Source of the DNA: Pseudanabaena mucicola FACHB-723
Lineage (GTDB): Bacteria > Cyanobacteriota > Cyanobacteriia > Pseudanabaenales > Pseudanabaenaceae
Reading direction: 5' to 3'
Assembly: GCF_014696385.1 (NCBI RefSeq)
Contig: NZ_JACJQB010000008.1
Span: 1-64,000, forward strand
DNA: 64,000 nt
The number at the start of each line of letters is the position of its first letter. Position 1 is the first letter of the stretch. This document shows, piece by piece, positions 10,823 through 61,794 of this stretch. The notes beneath the pieces were generated by a model, which saw nothing but the letters and a program-made list of their open reading frames with translations, ran no database searches and had not been told where the DNA came from. A program made the translations under genes and the position numbers.

Positions 10823-10864
10823 TTGTATCCTATTGCGCTCGTCATTCTTGTTACTGCACTTTGC

Positions 10865-10917
10865 AAACCCTAAAATCTGTGGCGCACACTGCGTGTGCGC
10901 CACAGATTTTAGGGTTT
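10865..10917. repeat. Perfect 25-bp inverted repeat with 3-nt loop
   Basis: Left arm 10865-10889, loop TGC 10890-10892, right arm 10893-10917; the arms are exact complements. The centre is GC-rich (GGCGCACAC/GTGTGCGCC) and the outer part AT-rich (AAACCCTAAAATCTGT). No T tract follows on either strand (TTTGGGTTTAA), so it is a poor match to an intrinsic terminator although it lies 43 bases after the CO2 hydration gene. It resembles the palindrome at 51101-51155 in arm length and loop size. Confidence 0.85.
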
Positions 10918-11029
10918 GGGTTTAATTATGCCTAGCTACTTACAAGAAGAGTTTTACTGAGAAATTTTTTTTGTCAAAATGTGTATTTCTAAATACCTGT
11001 ATCCAAATTATTGTAAAGTCAAAGTCTGT

Positions 11030-14731: not shown

Positions 14732-16648
14732 ATGGGCAAGCGTGTCTATATCGGGCGTTCAGGAATTCCTCTGACCAGAAGACAGTTTTTAATGGCTTTA
14801 GGGGGATTGGGGGGAGCCGCAGTTTTGCAGCGCGGTTTGGTCAGCTTAGGATTACTCGACAATCCCTATGCCCATGCCCAAAGTCCACGCTTCCCCACGG
14901 GAAATATTGGCAATGGGAAGAAGGTAATCGTCATCGGTGCGGGTGTGGCTGGTATCTGTACCGCCTATTTGTTGGCGAATCGGGGCTTTGATGTCAAGGT
15001 TTTTGAAGCGAATAATCGCATGGGTGGGCGATCGCTGACAGTGCGACCAGGCGGAAAGATGCAGGAAGTTGGCGGGGAAATTCAAACCTGTGATTTTATC
15101 AAATCCGATAATGCTCCCAGTCCATACCTCAATGCAGGCCCTGGCAGAATTCCCCATCATCATCAAACTGTTCTCAAGTATTGCCGCGCTTTTAAAGTTG
15201 CCCTAGAACCTTTCATTTTCTTATCCAGTGCTAACCGTTTTCAAAGTAACACTTTGAATAATGGCAAGCCTGTCTTGTTTCGGCAATTGCAAAGTAGCCT
15301 GCACCATGAAATTGGGGAAATCCTCGATAAAACTCCTGGTACGCAGCTAGATCGAGCGCTTGATCAAGTATTAACTGAAGATGATTTTGTGAGAATGTTC
15401 ATTGATGAATATTCGATTAACGATCTGCCCAAAAATGAGCAGCGCCGCCTCCTCCGTGGAGTCTTTGCGGGAGAGTTTGGCGAATATACTGACAGTCTAC
15501 CTAAGCCACCTTCTCGCCTTGCGCGTTTGAGAGAGAGTTTTTATGAAGAATCCTCACGCTTTGGCTCAGATTTCACCAATCAACAGCCACCTTGGGCAGG
15601 AATAAATGAAGGAAATCCATTGCCAATCATTGAATTGGAAGAAATTCTGCGTTCTGGTTTATGGAATGGTGAGATGTTTAATTCCCTTAGAACTGAGTGG
15701 CAAAATTCTTTGCTACAGCCCGTTGGCGGGATGGATATGCTATGGAAAGCATTTTTGGAACAACCTGTCATGGGCAACAAAAAAGTCAAAGACCTTGTGG
15801 TGGTCAATCGCCCCATCACTGCGATTACGCCTGATGCTCAGGGTGTGACTGTTTCCTATGTCGATGGTAGCGATCGCGCCGATTTTTGTGTTTCGACCAT
15901 GACTCCCAAACGACTTGCCGCCGTTGTCCGTAATGCCAGTGAAGATTTCAAGGTTTGTCTCAATGCTTTTCGTTCTGTGCCTGCTACGAAAGTGGGATTT
16001 CAAACCAAAAATCGCTTCTGGGAAGTGGGCGATGACAAAATTTACGAAACTGGGAAAGAATCAATCTATGGCGGCATTAGTTGGATCAAGAATGACTATC
16101 CCACAGAACTCACGCAAGCTTTTCGACAGGAAGCGAATGGCGGCAAGCGATTAGGAACTGAGGATTTTCGCAATCTCTACGCTCAAGCCAGTCCTGAGAT
16201 CCGCAAACAAAAGTGGTCTACGCTAATCACACAGGTTTGGTATCCTTCCAATGGATTTCACGGCGAAAGGGGTGTGCTTACGGGAACTTACAACAACAGT
16301 CGTGCTGCGAGAGCCTTGGGATCTTTGCAAAGTAAAGATCGGATTGACTTGGCGCTTATGGGTGGTGAAAAGCTCCATGCTGGTTACAGCAATAACATTC
16401 GCAAGGAAAGCGCTCTGGTGGTGGCTTGGCAAAATATGCCTTACTTCGATGGTGGTTGGGACAGTCACTCAGGAAGGAAGTCCGAAACTAAGGCTTACTA
16501 TGAGATGCTGAATACTCGCTTTAATCCCTATCTGAATATCTATTGCGCTGGCGACTATATGAGTTATTTACCCGGTTGGATGGAAGGTTCGCTAGGCTCG
16601 GCGGAGATTGTCTGCGATCGCATTTGTGAAAAGGTCAAATCTATTTAA
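14732..16648 (+). CDS. Tat-exported flavin-containing amine / L-amino-acid oxidase
   Basis: 638 residues from the ATG at 14732. The N-terminus carries a twin-arginine signal, TRRQFLMALGGLGGAAVLQ, so the protein is likely exported folded. The FAD-binding Rossmann motif is VIVIGAGVAGICTAYLLANR, followed by EANNRMGGRS. The C-terminal FAD motif is IYCAGDYMSYLPGWMEGSL. This arrangement fits flavin monoamine oxidases, including cyanobacterial L-amino-acid oxidases that deaminate amino acids to keto acids, ammonia and H2O2. The substrate cannot be read from sequence. It follows cobG by 92 bases but has its own gap and terminator. Confidence 0.85.
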   Translation: MGKRVYIGRSGIPLTRRQFLMALGGLGGAAVLQRGLVSLGLLDNPYAHAQSPRFPTGNIGNGKKVIVIGAGVAGICTAYLLANRGFDVKVFEANNRMGGRSLTVRPGGKMQEVGGEIQTCDFIKSDNAPSPYLNAGPGRIPHHHQTVLKYCRAFKVALEPFIFLSSANRFQSNTLNNGKPVLFRQLQSSLHHEIGEILDKTPGTQLDRALDQVLTEDDFVRMFIDEYSINDLPKNEQRRLLRGVFAGEFGEYTDSLPKPPSRLARLRESFYEESSRFGSDFTNQQPPWAGINEGNPLPIIELEEILRSGLWNGEMFNSLRTEWQNSLLQPVGGMDMLWKAFLEQPVMGNKKVKDLVVVNRPITAITPDAQGVTVSYVDGSDRADFCVSTMTPKRLAAVVRNASEDFKVCLNAFRSVPATKVGFQTKNRFWEVGDDKIYETGKESIYGGISWIKNDYPTELTQAFRQEANGGKRLGTEDFRNLYAQASPEIRKQKWSTLITQVWYPSNGFHGERGVLTGTYNNSRAARALGSLQSKDRIDLALMGGEKLHAGYSNNIRKESALVVAWQNMPYFDGGWDSHSGRKSETKAYYEMLNTRFNPYLNIYCAGDYMSYLPGWMEGSLGSAEIVCDRICEKVKSI

Positions 16649-16679
16649 AAAAGGGCGGCGCATTGCGCCGCCCTTTTTT
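16647..16679. terminator. Bidirectional intrinsic terminator after the amine oxidase
   Basis: Perfect 15-bp arms (16647-16661 and 16665-16679) with loop ATT, GC-rich core GGGCGGCGC and A6/T6 flanks on both sides. It sits between the convergent amine-oxidase gene and the DUF5615 gene. The 19-base core is identical to that of the terminator at 36861-36899. Confidence 0.9.
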
Positions 16680-16712
16680 GTCTGCAACAGAAGCAAACGA
16701 TCGCCGTTATTA

Positions 16713-36860: not shown

Positions 36861-36899
36861 AAATAAAAAAGGCGGCGCATTGCGCCGCCTTTTTTATTT
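36861..36899. terminator. Bidirectional terminator between pdxA and rplI
   Basis: 18-bp perfect arms with loop ATT; the core GGCGGCGCATTGCGCCGCC is base-for-base the same as in the terminator at 16647-16679. A6 and T6 tracts lie on both sides of the GC core. Confidence 0.92.
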
Positions 36900-44431: not shown

Positions 44432-44472
44432 AAGTAGAGAATGACGGCGCTTCGCGCCGCCATTCTCTACTT
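44432..44472. terminator. Hairpin between convergent M1 peptidase and GIDE genes
   Basis: 19-bp arms with one mismatch (AAGTAGAGAATGACGGCGC against the complement with G for A) and loop TTC. It overlaps the last codons of the GIDE gene. No long T tract follows, so it is only a possible terminator and also fits the palindromic-element family of this genome. Confidence 0.65.
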
Positions 44473-46899: not shown

Positions 46900-47367
46900 A
46901 TGACTGATGATGTTGATAATTTCGCCGATAATTTAGTCGTCAAACCCAAAAAGTCAGGACTAGCACCGCTAATCTTGACCTTAGTGGAATTGTTGCGCCA
47001 GTTAATGGAAGCTCAAGTCATTCGGCGCATGGATGCCGAAAAGCTAACCGAGTCTGAGATTAATCGCGCTGCTGATAGCCTTCAAGCCCTAGAGCAGCAA
47101 ATTTTCAACCTTTGTGAAGTCCTAGATATTGATCCTGAAGACCTTAATCTTGATTTAGGTGAATTTGGAAAACTCCTGCCCCGTCGGGGAGCCTACTATC
47201 CCGATCAATCCTCTAGCGAATCATCGATATTAGAATTGCTCGATCGTCTCATTAGCACAGGCATAGTTTTAGAAGGCGATGTCCAGATTGGGCTTGCGGA
47301 TATTAATTTGATCGATCTCAAACTGAAGTTATTACTCACATCTGGGGATAAGTCGGCATCGTCTTGA
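46900..47367 (+). CDS. gvpK: Gas vesicle protein GvpK
   Basis: 155 residues that match GvpK: LAPLILTLVELLRQLMEAQ, IRRMDAEKLTESEINRAADS, ALEQQIFNLCEVLDIDPEDL then NLDLGEFGKLLPRRG, and the C-terminal ELLDRLISTGIVLEGDVQIG with LADINLIDLKLKLLLTS. GvpK is needed for gas vesicle assembly in organisms that make them. No gvpA/C/N/J/L/F/G/V/W gene lies anywhere in this window, so it is separated from the main cluster. Its end overlaps the convergent larC end by 32 bases. Confidence 0.9.
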   Translation: MTDDVDNFADNLVVKPKKSGLAPLILTLVELLRQLMEAQVIRRMDAEKLTESEINRAADSLQALEQQIFNLCEVLDIDPEDLNLDLGEFGKLLPRRGAYYPDQSSSESSILELLDRLISTGIVLEGDVQIGLADINLIDLKLKLLLTSGDKSASS

Positions 47368-48720
47368 GCAGTTGTAGCCCCGCCACCCTGACGGCTTCTT
47401 GAATTTGGAATAGCGGTAAATTTTGCGATCGCGCTAATTTGGCACAGTCTTCATATTCTGGTTGCACTGTCCAGAAATCGTTTCGCCAAGCAATTTTGAC
47501 CCTTGCCGTACCATATTCGGTAATCACTTCGAGAATTTTGCGATCGAGAATTTTGCGCTGTTGATATCGATAGCGAATACCGAGGGTACTTGTTTCTTGA
47601 AACAGAATTTGCTCGCATACAGATTTGCGATCGCAGGTACAGATCACCGTTAGCAATACACCACTGCGAGACTTTTTCATGCCGATGGCTTGACTATAAA
47701 CATCTAAAGCCCCTGCCTGCAATAGCTGCTCCATCGTGTAGGCAATCGCTTGAGCCGTCATATCATCTACTTGCGTTTCCAAAATAGCGATCGTTTCTTG
47801 TGTCTGTGTATTTCGCAGATTTTGGGTTAGGAGATTAGTGGATTGATTAAGCGCTAGGCGAGCCCTTTTTTTTTATCCTTACCAATCCATAGACGCAAAA
47901 TATTGGGAATTTCTAGATCTTGAGAACCTGCTCCTAGTCCCACTTTTTTGATTTTCATCGGTGGCACTTCCCCAAATTTTTTACAACGGGTGACTGCAAT
48001 TGCTGCACCTGTGGGTGTGACCAGTTCCTTCTTAATTCCATTATCAAAGGTGGTCACGCCGTGCATTTCCCATAGTTTCAAGGTTGCAGGTGCGGGTACA
48101 GGCATCTTGCCATGCTCGCAATTGACATAGCCGCCACCCGCAGGCAAAGCCGAGCAATAAAGATGCTCAATGCCTAACCAAGCCAATCCCGCACAGGTAC
48201 AAACAATATCCACGATCGCATCAATTGCGCCGACTTCATGAAAATGGACAGATTCAGGGGCAATGCCATGCACCGCCCCTTCAGCAATCGCCAGTTCTCT
48301 AAATATGGCGAGACTCCAAACTTCAACTTGTTGAGGTAACTTGGCATTACAGATCAGCTTCTCAATATCGGGTAGATGACGATGTACCCCATGGGAATGC
48401 ACTTGATGCGAAGTTCCTGAATGTTTATGGGAATGGTCATGGGAATGACTATGGGATTGATGATCGTGATCGGAAGTTTGGTCGGAAACTATCGGCGAAA
48501 CCGTTTCATGGGCATGGCTAATTAGTTCAACATGTAATTTGGTCGCTTCCACACCCATGCGCTGCACCAATTCTGTCCATAGTTTCACTTCTGTTTCTAG
48601 ACCCAACTTCTGGACAATTTCCTGTAAATATGTCAAAGGCACACCCGCGCTGACCAGCGCACCTAAACACATATCACCAGAGATTCCTGTTGGACAGTCT
48701 AAATATGCAATGCTTCCCAT
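47336..48720 (-). CDS. larC: LarC nickel-pincer cofactor cyclometallase, read through a -1 frameshift
   Basis: LarC inserts nickel into the NPN cofactor used by lactate racemase-type enzymes. The first frame (48720-47854) gives 288 residues: AYLDCPTGISGDMCLGALV, a His-rich nickel-binding loop at about 105-140 (HSHSHDHSHKHSG), ESVHFHEVGAIDAIVDIV and KKELVTPTGAAIAV, ending ...DKKKGLA at a TAG. The second frame (47866-47336) encodes the LarC2 half (LETQVDDMTAQAIAYTMEQL, then VLLTVICTCDRK and AWRNDFWTVQPEYEDCAK) and has no ATG before its core. The frames meet at a run of nine A (coding strand) at 47874-47866. A -1 shift gives one product of about 461 residues, as in Lactobacillus LarC. Confidence 0.88.
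47866..47874 (-). other. A9 slippery run in larC, probable -1 frameshift site
   Basis: On the coding strand GAT is followed by AAA AAA AAA GGG CTC GCC TAG. Slipping back one base after the A run gives AGG GCT CGC CTA GCG CTT, which runs open into the LarC2 frame. Ribosomal -1 slippage or RNA-polymerase slippage on A9 would both work. Confidence 0.8.
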
Positions 48721-50869: not shown

Positions 50870-51185
50870 TCCTCAGCTTTTATGTTGCATAGACTTTATT
50901 TTCAGGATTCAAGTGGTTCTACACCACAAGACTAGATAATATGCTAATGATAATTAATAGTCATTCTATCTTAACAATCAGATATTTTCCATACAGAAAC
51001 CATTAAATTATCTAGGATTTATCATGATAAAGTCTGATGGCAATCGTAGCTTTTATTCTTAATAATTAATTTCATAATTCTGCGATCGCAAAAATAAATC
51101 AAAACCAAAGAATTAAGTTGCAGCGCTTCGCGCTGCAACTTAATTCTTTGGTTTTATGTCCTAAGCAAAACTTTGATTGCTATAT
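50870..51185. other. 316-base gap without a gene
   Basis: AT-rich; contains the palindrome at 51101-51155 and one HIP1 site at about 51083. The right-hand half holds the promoter region for neither neighbour, since both neighbouring minus-strand genes read leftward; the DnaJ-like gene promoter should lie in its left part. No RNA gene or ORF is supported. Confidence 0.6.
51101..51155. repeat. Perfect 26-bp inverted repeat with 3-nt loop
   Basis: Arms 51101-51126 and 51130-51155, loop TTC, centre GCAGCGC/GCGCTGC, outer part AT-rich. Downstream of the DUF427 gene, but without a T tract beyond the stem other than the stem's own TTTT. Same design as 10865-10917. Confidence 0.88.
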
Positions 51186-53230: not shown

Positions 53231-53271
53231 AATAATTGTTTCGGCGAGCAAAGTCCGCCGAAACAATTATT
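53231..53271. repeat. 16-bp inverted repeat next to the Uma2 pseudogene
   Basis: AATAATTGTTTCGGCG (53231-53246) and CGCCGAAACAATTATT (53256-53271) are exact complements around a 9-base loop. It lies just past the ancestral end of the Uma2-family reading frame on the minus strand. Confidence 0.8.
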
Positions 53272-59669: not shown

Positions 59670-59679
59670 AAATTTTTAG

Positions 59680-59712
59680 GCAAATAAGCGGGCTTAGCCC
59701 GCTTATTTGCCG
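59680..59712. terminator. Hairpin between GST and FHA-flavoprotein genes
   Basis: 15-bp perfect arms GGCAAATAAGCGGGC / GCCCGCTTATTTGCC with loop TTA. The convergent FHA gene ends 7 bases away; T tracts are short, so it is a probable terminator of medium strength. Confidence 0.8.
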
Positions 59713-59718
59713 CAGGCT

Positions 59719-61794
59719 TTACGGAGCTTGATTAGTAGCCCATTTTAGCCACTGCCCCAACGAACTCAATCCATTGAGATAACCTAACTGGGGGGCGCGA
59801 GATACAATTAAGTTATCCACCGATCGCAAAGCCGCAAACTGTAAGCCCAAAAAACTATCTACCGCCGCATAGGGCCCACCCAAAGTCGCTGCCCCTGCTG
59901 CATATACCTTACCGATATAGGCTCGCCCCTGATTGCGTAGCTCCGCAATTTCAAAGTCATTAGTGACATTGAGTCTGCCCATAGCATTGGTTGGAATGTT
60001 GTAACATTGCAGCAAATCTGCATACAGAGGATTTGTCTCTACTTTGGCATCCAATCCTGTCGCATCAATAATAAAATCTGCGGTTAACTGCAATAGCCCT
60101 TGCATCTGACGTGGACGAATATAAGTAACCGTACGCTGATCAGGCAACCGTTCCACCTTCTCCACATCACCAAAGGTAATTTGATACCAACCTTCCTTTA
60201 GTCCTGTTTGGACAATGTGCTTCCAATCACGGCGATCGGCAGTGGTTGTGCCACCCCAATCCTTGAGCAAAGTATGGCGAGTAGCAGGATCGGACTTTTC
60301 GAGCAGTAGCCGTAAATCGCCACCCCAACAGGCTTTTGGCCAGTTAAAGGGTTGAAACTCGTAATGATTGTCCACATCGCGCTGCGCCTTACCATAGCGA
60401 TTACCTTGAGCTTTGGGCGATCGCATCAAATGCAAGAGATGAATATTTTGCTGTGGAGCTCGTTGACGTATTTCTGAGATGCGCTGCACAATTCGCGAAG
60501 CAACAATGCCACGTCCACGGATTAACACCGTACCGCCATGACTTTCGAGATGTTGATAAATATGCTCATGCTCCTCATAGCCATTGACTACAGAGCGAAA
60601 ATCTAAGGTTTGACTGCGATAAGCCTGTAAATCTGGCAAAAATTGGATCGCCGCATAGCCCACTGCTAAGTGTAAATATCTGACTACTAAAAAAGCATGA
60701 TTACCTTGCCCTAGGGAATATGCGATCGCATAGCGCCCATCATCGGTCTTCCGAATTGAGCGCACCCTGCCATAGCGATAGATCTTGTCCCAGCCAATGC
60801 GTTGGGCTTCACGATCAATCGAATCAAATACATTGCCCGATCGCGGCGTATAGGTTTCCGCCAAATCTGGCTCTGCAAAAACTTGCCAGAGATACTTAGC
60901 CGCTTGCTTGAGTATCCCGCGACTCAAGTCATGCCAAGCCTCGCGCCATGCGTAGCTAGGAAATCCCCAAATATTATCAGGACAGGAATCGGAATTAGAG
61001 CGCAATCTCTCGGACAAAGGAATCTGTGAGTTCAGACAAAGCCGTTTGTAGCGGGCATAGGGCTGTGGCTCTAAACCCAATGACACAATTTGATCCGCCG
61101 CCACCCCAAATATTCGTAAATAGTCTGCCCAGATATAGCTACCCAATCCCCCACCGACTGCCCCATAGGTTGACGCATATACAGGCATTCCTGTTTGCTG
61201 CAAAGCTGCCACCTCGACAACGGGTAATTGAAAAAAGTTGGGCGGAAAATCCTGACCAGTTTGACTAACCTGTGGGCTAGGAGGCTCTTCCCCTTTGGGG
61301 ATTGCTACTGATGGCGGTAAACCTGTTTTAGCATTAAATAAAATTGTTGGAAAACTTGGGGAAACTGAAGCTGTCTGACTTTCAGAATCCCTACTAAGGG
61401 TATTCGCCTGTGAAGTAGTAATTGTTGCTTGATTAGCCGAAACAGGAGCAAAGTCAAAGGCGATCGCAATTTCGTATCGTCCTAGCGTAATGCGATCGCC
61501 TGTGCTTAACACTTGCCGTAATCCCATCGACTGATTTAGCAAAACCCCATTGACCAAAACTCCATTGGTGCTGTTTTGGTCAATCGCCACTAGATTCCCC
61601 TGCTCAATTTTTAGTAACAGGTGATAGCGAGATACCGAGCGATCATTAAGCACTAATGGCGATACCTGTTCTGCATCAAGATAATCTGGCAGAGCCGTTG
61701 CATCCTTACCAATTGCGATCGGTAAATTTAAGCGTATAGATACAGACTGATCAGTGCCTACTTCTAGCCAGCTTAGTTGAACTTCAGACGGCAT
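59719..61794 (-). CDS. FHA domain fused to a putative FAD/NAD(P)-binding oxidoreductase
   Basis: 691 residues. An N-terminal FHA domain (about 20-115): LVLNDRSVSRYHLLLKIEQG and DQNSTNGVLVNGVLL carry the phospho-Thr-binding S-R-x-H and N-G-x-x-V-N patterns. A Pro/Ser/Thr-rich linker follows (about 118-190). The C-terminal 490 residues hold a Rossmann-like GAVGGGLGSYIWADYL at about 210, IRGRGIVASRIVQRI, ADFIIDATGLDAKVE and GKVYAAGAATLGGPY, as in flavin or lysine-hydroxylase-like oxidoreductases (PF13454-like). The FHA would bind a phosphorylated partner and bring the enzyme under kinase control. The reaction is unknown. Confidence 0.72.
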   Translation of the reverse strand: MPSEVQLSWLEVGTDQSVSIRLNLPIAIGKDATALPDYLDAEQVSPLVLNDRSVSRYHLLLKIEQGNLVAIDQNSTNGVLVNGVLLNQSMGLRQVLSTGDRITLGRYEIAIAFDFAPVSANQATITTSQANTLSRDSESQTASVSPSFPTILFNAKTGLPPSVAIPKGEEPPSPQVSQTGQDFPPNFFQLPVVEVAALQQTGMPVYASTYGAVGGGLGSYIWADYLRIFGVAADQIVSLGLEPQPYARYKRLCLNSQIPLSERLRSNSDSCPDNIWGFPSYAWREAWHDLSRGILKQAAKYLWQVFAEPDLAETYTPRSGNVFDSIDREAQRIGWDKIYRYGRVRSIRKTDDGRYAIAYSLGQGNHAFLVVRYLHLAVGYAAIQFLPDLQAYRSQTLDFRSVVNGYEEHEHIYQHLESHGGTVLIRGRGIVASRIVQRISEIRQRAPQQNIHLLHLMRSPKAQGNRYGKAQRDVDNHYEFQPFNWPKACWGGDLRLLLEKSDPATRHTLLKDWGGTTTADRRDWKHIVQTGLKEGWYQITFGDVEKVERLPDQRTVTYIRPRQMQGLLQLTADFIIDATGLDAKVETNPLYADLLQCYNIPTNAMGRLNVTNDFEIAELRNQGRAYIGKVYAAGAATLGGPYAAVDSFLGLQFAALRSVDNLIVSRAPQLGYLNGLSSLGQWLKWATNQAP

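Follow-up and report, generated by a model that had tools for sequence, protein, structure and literature searches.

Layout of larC in the window

How might a protein that most other cyanobacteria sampled encode in a single frame come to be made from a gene that is written in two? The question is raised by larC, which occupies two overlapping reading frames on the minus strand of the window (the whole stretch of DNA that was analysed, 64,000 nucleotides). We read the open frames and their translations, and found that the LarC1 and LarC2 domains are both present, above the curated cut-offs of the respective models (PF01969 and TIGR00299, and NF052512). The features of the locus are collected in table 1. 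The LarC1 frame, which contains a histidine-rich stretch (HDHDHQSHSHSHDHSHKHS), ends in GGT AAG GAT AAA AAA AAA GGG CTC GCC TAG, and its run of nine A's includes the -1 heptamer A AAA AAA. Ahead of the LarC2 frame stands a TAA whose two A's already belong to the same run (TAA AAA AAA AGG GCT CGC). A shift to -1 after the third AAA connects 285 residues from the LarC1 frame to 176 from the LarC2 frame, giving 461 aa. No ATG is found in the window upstream of the conserved ETQVDDM motif of LarC2, and the sole start-like codon before that motif is a TTG located 3 nt upstream, without a Shine-Dalgarno sequence. The preliminary description had already placed the end of the LarC1 frame a few codons after AAA AAA AAA and the LarC2 frame, devoid of an ATG, in the -1 register; both readings were confirmed, with identical coordinates down to 47336. 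A second copy of larC was not found in the window's genome. The neighbouring gene, of the GvpK type of gas vesicle genes (PF05121, with a C-terminal PF00741 match), is convergent with larC, and the two overlap tail-to-tail by about 30 nt.

Table 1. Position of the larC features, the convergent gene and the long palindromes within the window
Feature	Position	Strand	Description	Evidence
larC1 frame (0 frame)	47854..48720	-	N-terminal part of LarC, 288 aa, ATG at 48720	Pfam PF01969 positions 1-238, E 8.5e-90; NCBIfam TIGR00299 LarC, E 4.4e-64; PDB match 12bi, E 3.2e-59
A9 slippery run	47866..47874	-	0 frame = AAA AAA AAA; T9 on plus strand	
0-frame stop TAG	47854..47856	-	three codons past A9 run	
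larC2 frame (-1 frame)	47336..47872	-	C-terminal part of LarC, without own start codon	Pfam PF01969 positions 226-374, E 2e-49; NCBIfam NF052512 LarC2, E 1.5e-42; PDB 6bwo, E 6.5e-30
larC2 stop	47336-47338	-		
GvpK-type gene	46900-47367			PF05121; PF00741
Long palindrome	10864-10918			
Long palindrome	16646-16680			
Long palindrome	36861-36899			
Long palindrome	44432-44472			
Long palindrome	51101-51155			
Long palindrome	53231-53271			
Long palindrome	59670-59720			

Conservation of the join within the order

The order, which consists here of one family of eight genera, was represented by 38 genomes; LarC was found in 37 of these and the join was read in all 37. The gene is written in two frames in 34 genomes from seven genera, some of them assembled into one to a few contigs, and in a single frame in the three genomes of genus g2. 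G015, a genome of the window's genus with 99% completeness, gave no LarC match, and another genome (G024) carries, at about 7 kb from its larC, a second LarC2-like stretch (L116, G024:C17:476400-477500) that is not accompanied by a LarC1 match. The preliminary description had proposed to align the join over relatives, and this comparison bore out the reading: a conserved run was found, with LarC2 in the -1 register in 33 of the 34 two-frame genomes, that is in all 25 genomes of the window's genus (window included), among which an in-frame version does not occur, and in 8 of the 9 genomes of the six sister genera.

The run that precedes the change of frame is A9 in 27 of the 33 -1 joins, A10 in four and A6 followed by G in two. 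Six of the seven genera have an A9 or A10 run. The seventh (g7) has the ribosomal slip heptamer A AAA AAG, and its join reads CCA AAA AAG, directly followed by a stop (G031 and G060; in the latter the two halves are on separate contigs, each at a contig end, and the join was read from the LarC1 contig). The 0-frame stop is located 1-37 nt past the run in the -1 joins, and the linker from the run to the motif measures 20 to 125 nt. Its sequence diverges freely (mean identity 36% within the genus) and its insertions and deletions preserve the register. In the four A10 genes (G011, G016, G019 and G022) the linker is adjusted such that LarC2 is still found at -1. The lysine codon AAG is absent from the 28 runs that are in phase 0, compared to 215 of the 680 lysine codons elsewhere in these genes (AAA 68%). 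One gene of the order deviates: that of G059 (genus g6) has an A8 run and a +1 register, which may be an assembly error since its congener G030 has A9 and -1. Single-frame relatives with an A10 or A8 run, named in the preliminary description as evidence that would speak for an error or a broken gene, were not encountered within the order: the A10 genes are at -1, the A8 gene is at +1, and the single-frame genes of genus g2 that were inspected lack an A run at the corresponding join.

The run itself is uncommon. In the 3.96-Mb genome to which the window belongs there are 19 isolated A9 runs, both strands counted, and inspection of their surroundings indicated that only that of larC sits in an overlap of two long frames on the same strand. 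Because A9 runs are rare, the run of larC is unique in such an overlap and the join recurs in more than 30 related genomes, the arrangement exceeds what is expected by chance. Another of the 19 runs (L149, G000:C17:7133-8743) closely follows the stop codon of a 265-aa frame and falls within a 105-aa frame on the same strand; it is not an overlap like that of larC.

Selection on both halves and the proposed expression of larC

We then compared the two halves over 24 genes of the genus. The differences at codon positions 1, 2 and 3 amount to 0.151, 0.093 and 0.410 for LarC1 and to 0.162, 0.110 and 0.431 for LarC2. These values indicate that both halves are translated and under purifying selection, and that they are constrained alike; for LarC2, the conclusion that it is translated and selected follows from its differences per codon position.

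Given the -1 register in 33 of 34 joins, the conserved run, the selection and the lack of an initiation signal for LarC2, larC is very probably one gene, the halves of which are joined by programmed -1 recoding at the A9 run, whether by the ribosome or by RNA polymerase. A fraction of the expression events would then lead to full LarC of about 461 aa (285 + 176), while the remaining events would yield a 288-aa LarC1 with the tail GLA. We infer that the cell makes this fusion and that it is the active form. Across the order, the recoded larC would be an old form of the gene that has been inherited stably. Since gene finders divide genes of this kind, LarC would be scored in these genomes as two partial genes or as missing.

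Recoded and unrecoded genes known from elsewhere

The LarC protein of Lactobacillus plantarum is reportedly produced by recoding, as described in the original report on that organism. The preliminary description had assumed that the same device is used here, which the conserved run, the -1 register and the selection on both halves support, and the parallel holds at the sequence level: the plasmid-borne larC of L. plantarum Heal19 has an A10 run (GAA AAA AAA AAC TAA) with LarC2 at -1, so that the two systems have in common the gene, the A run, the register of LarC2 and a 0-frame stop right behind the run. The form of the gene varies between plasmids, as that of L. paracasei TCS has an A11 run and one frame, and that of L. 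plantarum TS12 is a single frame devoid of an A run. A Paenibacillus plasmid carries two separately annotated genes, larC1 and larC2, the second with a Shine-Dalgarno sequence and an ATG of its own, and therefore fusion is not compulsory in every organism.

The LarC family was formerly named DUF111 (PF01969), and under that name the recoding clusters of Antonov et al. 2013 include the same protein family, annotated as two genes, for which E. coli reporters gave frameshifting of up to 39% (PMC3711429). Frameshifting in LarC is therefore already known; what is new is its depth in a cyanobacterial order, the mixture of slip sites and the hairpins described below. An open-literature search recovered no paper on larC recoding in this order. 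Both kinds of slip site that have been described for dnaX, the ribosomal A AAA AAG of E. coli and the transcriptional A9 of Thermus, occur among the larC genes of the order (PMC5009743; PMC3711429), although dnaX yields two needed products in a ratio of about 1:1, a point in which larC may differ. The LarC of Synechocystis sp. PCC 6803 is the same enzyme, and in an E. coli system it supported the insertion of nickel (PMC11796402), but it is encoded in one frame (a single UniProt entry, P72725) and needs no slip site.

Ribosome or RNA polymerase

Slippage of the ribosome and slippage of the polymerase lead to an identical fusion, and the sequence alone fits both, as the preliminary description had allowed. 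With the ribosome, the shift would consist of tandem tRNA-Lys slippage on A AAA AAA. With the polymerase, one A would be added to the transcript, and ordinary translation of those mRNAs that carry the extra A would produce full LarC. We favour the ribosome, which seems the somewhat probable agent; the polymerase is a plausible but doubtful one, and a contribution of both is unlikely. The heptamer A AAA AAG of genus g7 is the most shift-prone A-rich heptamer that has been tested in E. coli, where it is the dnaX site (PMC5009743). Transcriptional slippage is quoted for An with n>7 in PMC3711429, and the A6 run with which genus g7 retains the device is shorter than that, which favours the ribosome. 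The frameshifting measured in the E. coli reporters also counts on the side of the ribosome. For the polymerase speak: i) the maintenance over six genera of A9-A10, longer than the heptamer requires; ii) the observation that selection against slippage usually becomes visible at a length of nine (PMC1088944), together with the scarcity of isolated A9 runs in the genome; and iii) the IS elements of Nostoc with A8-A10, for which transcriptional slippage has been proposed (PMC1088944). Yet the A9 run does not single out the polymerase, because frameshifting in E. coli rises with run length: the Mg-chelatase constructs of PMC3711429 show 10% at A7, 40% at A9 and 63% at A11, and the rise from A7 to A9 is compatible with either machine. 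The occurrence of A9/A10 versus A AAA AAG, and of a hairpin versus none, within one order constitutes a natural series by which ribosomal and polymerase slippage could be separated.

Other readings of the split

Points that speak against programmed recoding are the absence of an outstanding downstream structure from the window's own gene, the +1 register of G059 and the separate genes of Paenibacillus. The last of these lends itself to another reading, in which two separate proteins are made, LarC1 stopping at its own stop codon and LarC2 being begun by re-initiation or coupling. That reading is improbable for the order. Neither an ATG nor a Shine-Dalgarno sequence precedes the LarC2 motif in the window, the start-like codons in the linkers across the order are sporadic, without a fixed place and almost never accompanied by a Shine-Dalgarno sequence, and the conserved run and constant -1 register would be left unexplained. 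A separate LarC2 start was rejected on the ground that no consistent start or Shine-Dalgarno sequence exists across the order.

Phase variation, in which replication slippage in the run would toggle LarC on and off between cells, is more improbable still. Long A runs are hypermutable, and the A11 run with one frame in L. paracasei compared to the A10 run with two frames in L. plantarum indicates that run length changes in evolution; however, the on state is not represented among the 34 two-frame joins of the order, and the A10 genes have been re-registered so that they stay at -1. Moreover, LarC is a cytoplasmic cofactor enzyme and not a surface antigen. A sequencing error or broken gene is very improbable and was rejected on the basis of conservation and selection: homopolymers are error-prone, and G059 (A8, +1) and a genome from outside the order (G258; -1, no run) are possibly such cases, but more than 30 separately assembled genomes are concordant and both halves are under purifying selection.

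A hairpin behind the run in part of the genus

Directly behind the A run, 12 of the genus's 25 genomes (G005-G009, G011, G012, G016-G019 and G022; loci L083-L087, L089, L090, L093-L096 and L099) carry a hairpin of at least 17 bp, which starts 0-9 nt past the run. The energies range from about -22 to -46 kcal/mol, with z values of -5.9 to -11.7 in the eleven that were compared with shuffles. Weaker hairpins are found in G010, G013 and G024, and decayed-looking ones in G003 and G014. The hairpin is absent from the window's own larC, in which no downstream structure stands out (z +0.6), and from several sister species. A stimulator, in the form of a downstream structure or an upstream Shine-Dalgarno sequence, is usual in programmed -1 frameshift genes without being compulsory. 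Its sequence varies between sub-groups, and the larC join gave no Rfam match.

The core of the hairpin has a single exact occurrence in each of the six genomes that were searched, other matches being look-alikes with two mismatches, and on this ground a mobile repeat with a constant sequence was rejected. Long palindromes that differ from it in sequence are, however, common between the genes of these genomes, and for that reason an origin of the hairpin from such palindromic elements is possible. Around larC, palindromes of the same score are confined to three places, namely the region upstream of LarC1, the vicinity of the LarC2 3' end and the join itself; the rest of the gene has none. The window contains seven long and near-perfect palindromes with arms of 16-26 bp, several of which have a core like GGCGGCGC...GCGCCGCC (table 1), and similar palindromes flank larC in relatives.

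The covariation of the hairpin (4 pairs changed on both sides, in six sequences) was not used as proof, since perfect palindromes can also be maintained by template-switch correction. The wobble pairs weakly favour a role on the larC strand, with 16 G-U pairs there versus 5 that would wobble on the opposite strand. Read on that opposite strand, the hairpin followed by T9 resembles an intrinsic terminator. The hairpin could be a stimulator of the shift, an element that is tolerated in a free linker, or an antisense look-alike of a terminator. It is conceivable, though unlikely, that the shift in larC acts as a regulated valve between LarC1 and full LarC which several lineages have reinforced with a palindromic hairpin as stimulator; if true, a palindrome of the intergenic type would have been turned into a frameshift stimulator behind a slip run.

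Distribution outside the order and history of the split

The phylum sample comprised 339 genomes, and by a hand count LarC is present in 162 genomes that belong to the same class but not to the order. In all but three of these LarC forms one stretch. The three are G039, with one open frame, and G152 and G258, where the gene is split at -1. In G152, which belongs to another family, the linker contains an A9 run, and in the tree its LarC clusters with a single-frame protein, apart from those of the order; its split gene may have a separate origin or may be an error in a single genome, and in the former case a further cyanobacterial family may have evolved larC recoding independently. The split in G258 lacks an A run and may be an error. 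Because the wider phylum is single-frame and the g2 genes that were read have no A run, the distribution is not the pattern of sequencing errors.

The protein tree requires three changes of state in total. Tentatively, the two-frame form would have been gained once in the ancestor of the order and lost once in genus g2, the third change being that in G152. The history is given as tentative because this basal node received moderate support (81/94), long branches occur in several rows and the bootstrap was still unsettled. In a separate wide scan of named genomes, which included few cyanobacteria, the loci with both halves were single-frame except for three in Verrucomicrobia (L053-L055), where LarC1 and LarC2 lie in the same frame and are split by a plain TAA, which is a different kind of split.

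Function of LarC and its partner genes

The window's genome encodes LarB (E 4.2e-86) and LarE (E 1.3e-93), and hence LarC has a pathway to serve. The genes larE and larB (L132 and L136; G000 contigs C1 and C7) are located on contigs other than that of larC, and no LarA match was found in the genome; in L. plantarum, by contrast, larC is clustered with larA, larB and larE. The combination of larB and larE without larA is a pattern of many cyanobacteria, in which the protein that uses the nickel-pincer nucleotide is unknown (PMC11796402). Full-length LarC is predicted to be the CTP-dependent nickel insertase for this nucleotide. LarC1 alone is presumably unable to complete the insertion of nickel, since it is without the C-terminal domain that was solved in 6bwo; it may nevertheless have a use of its own, for example the binding of nickel via its histidine-rich stretch.
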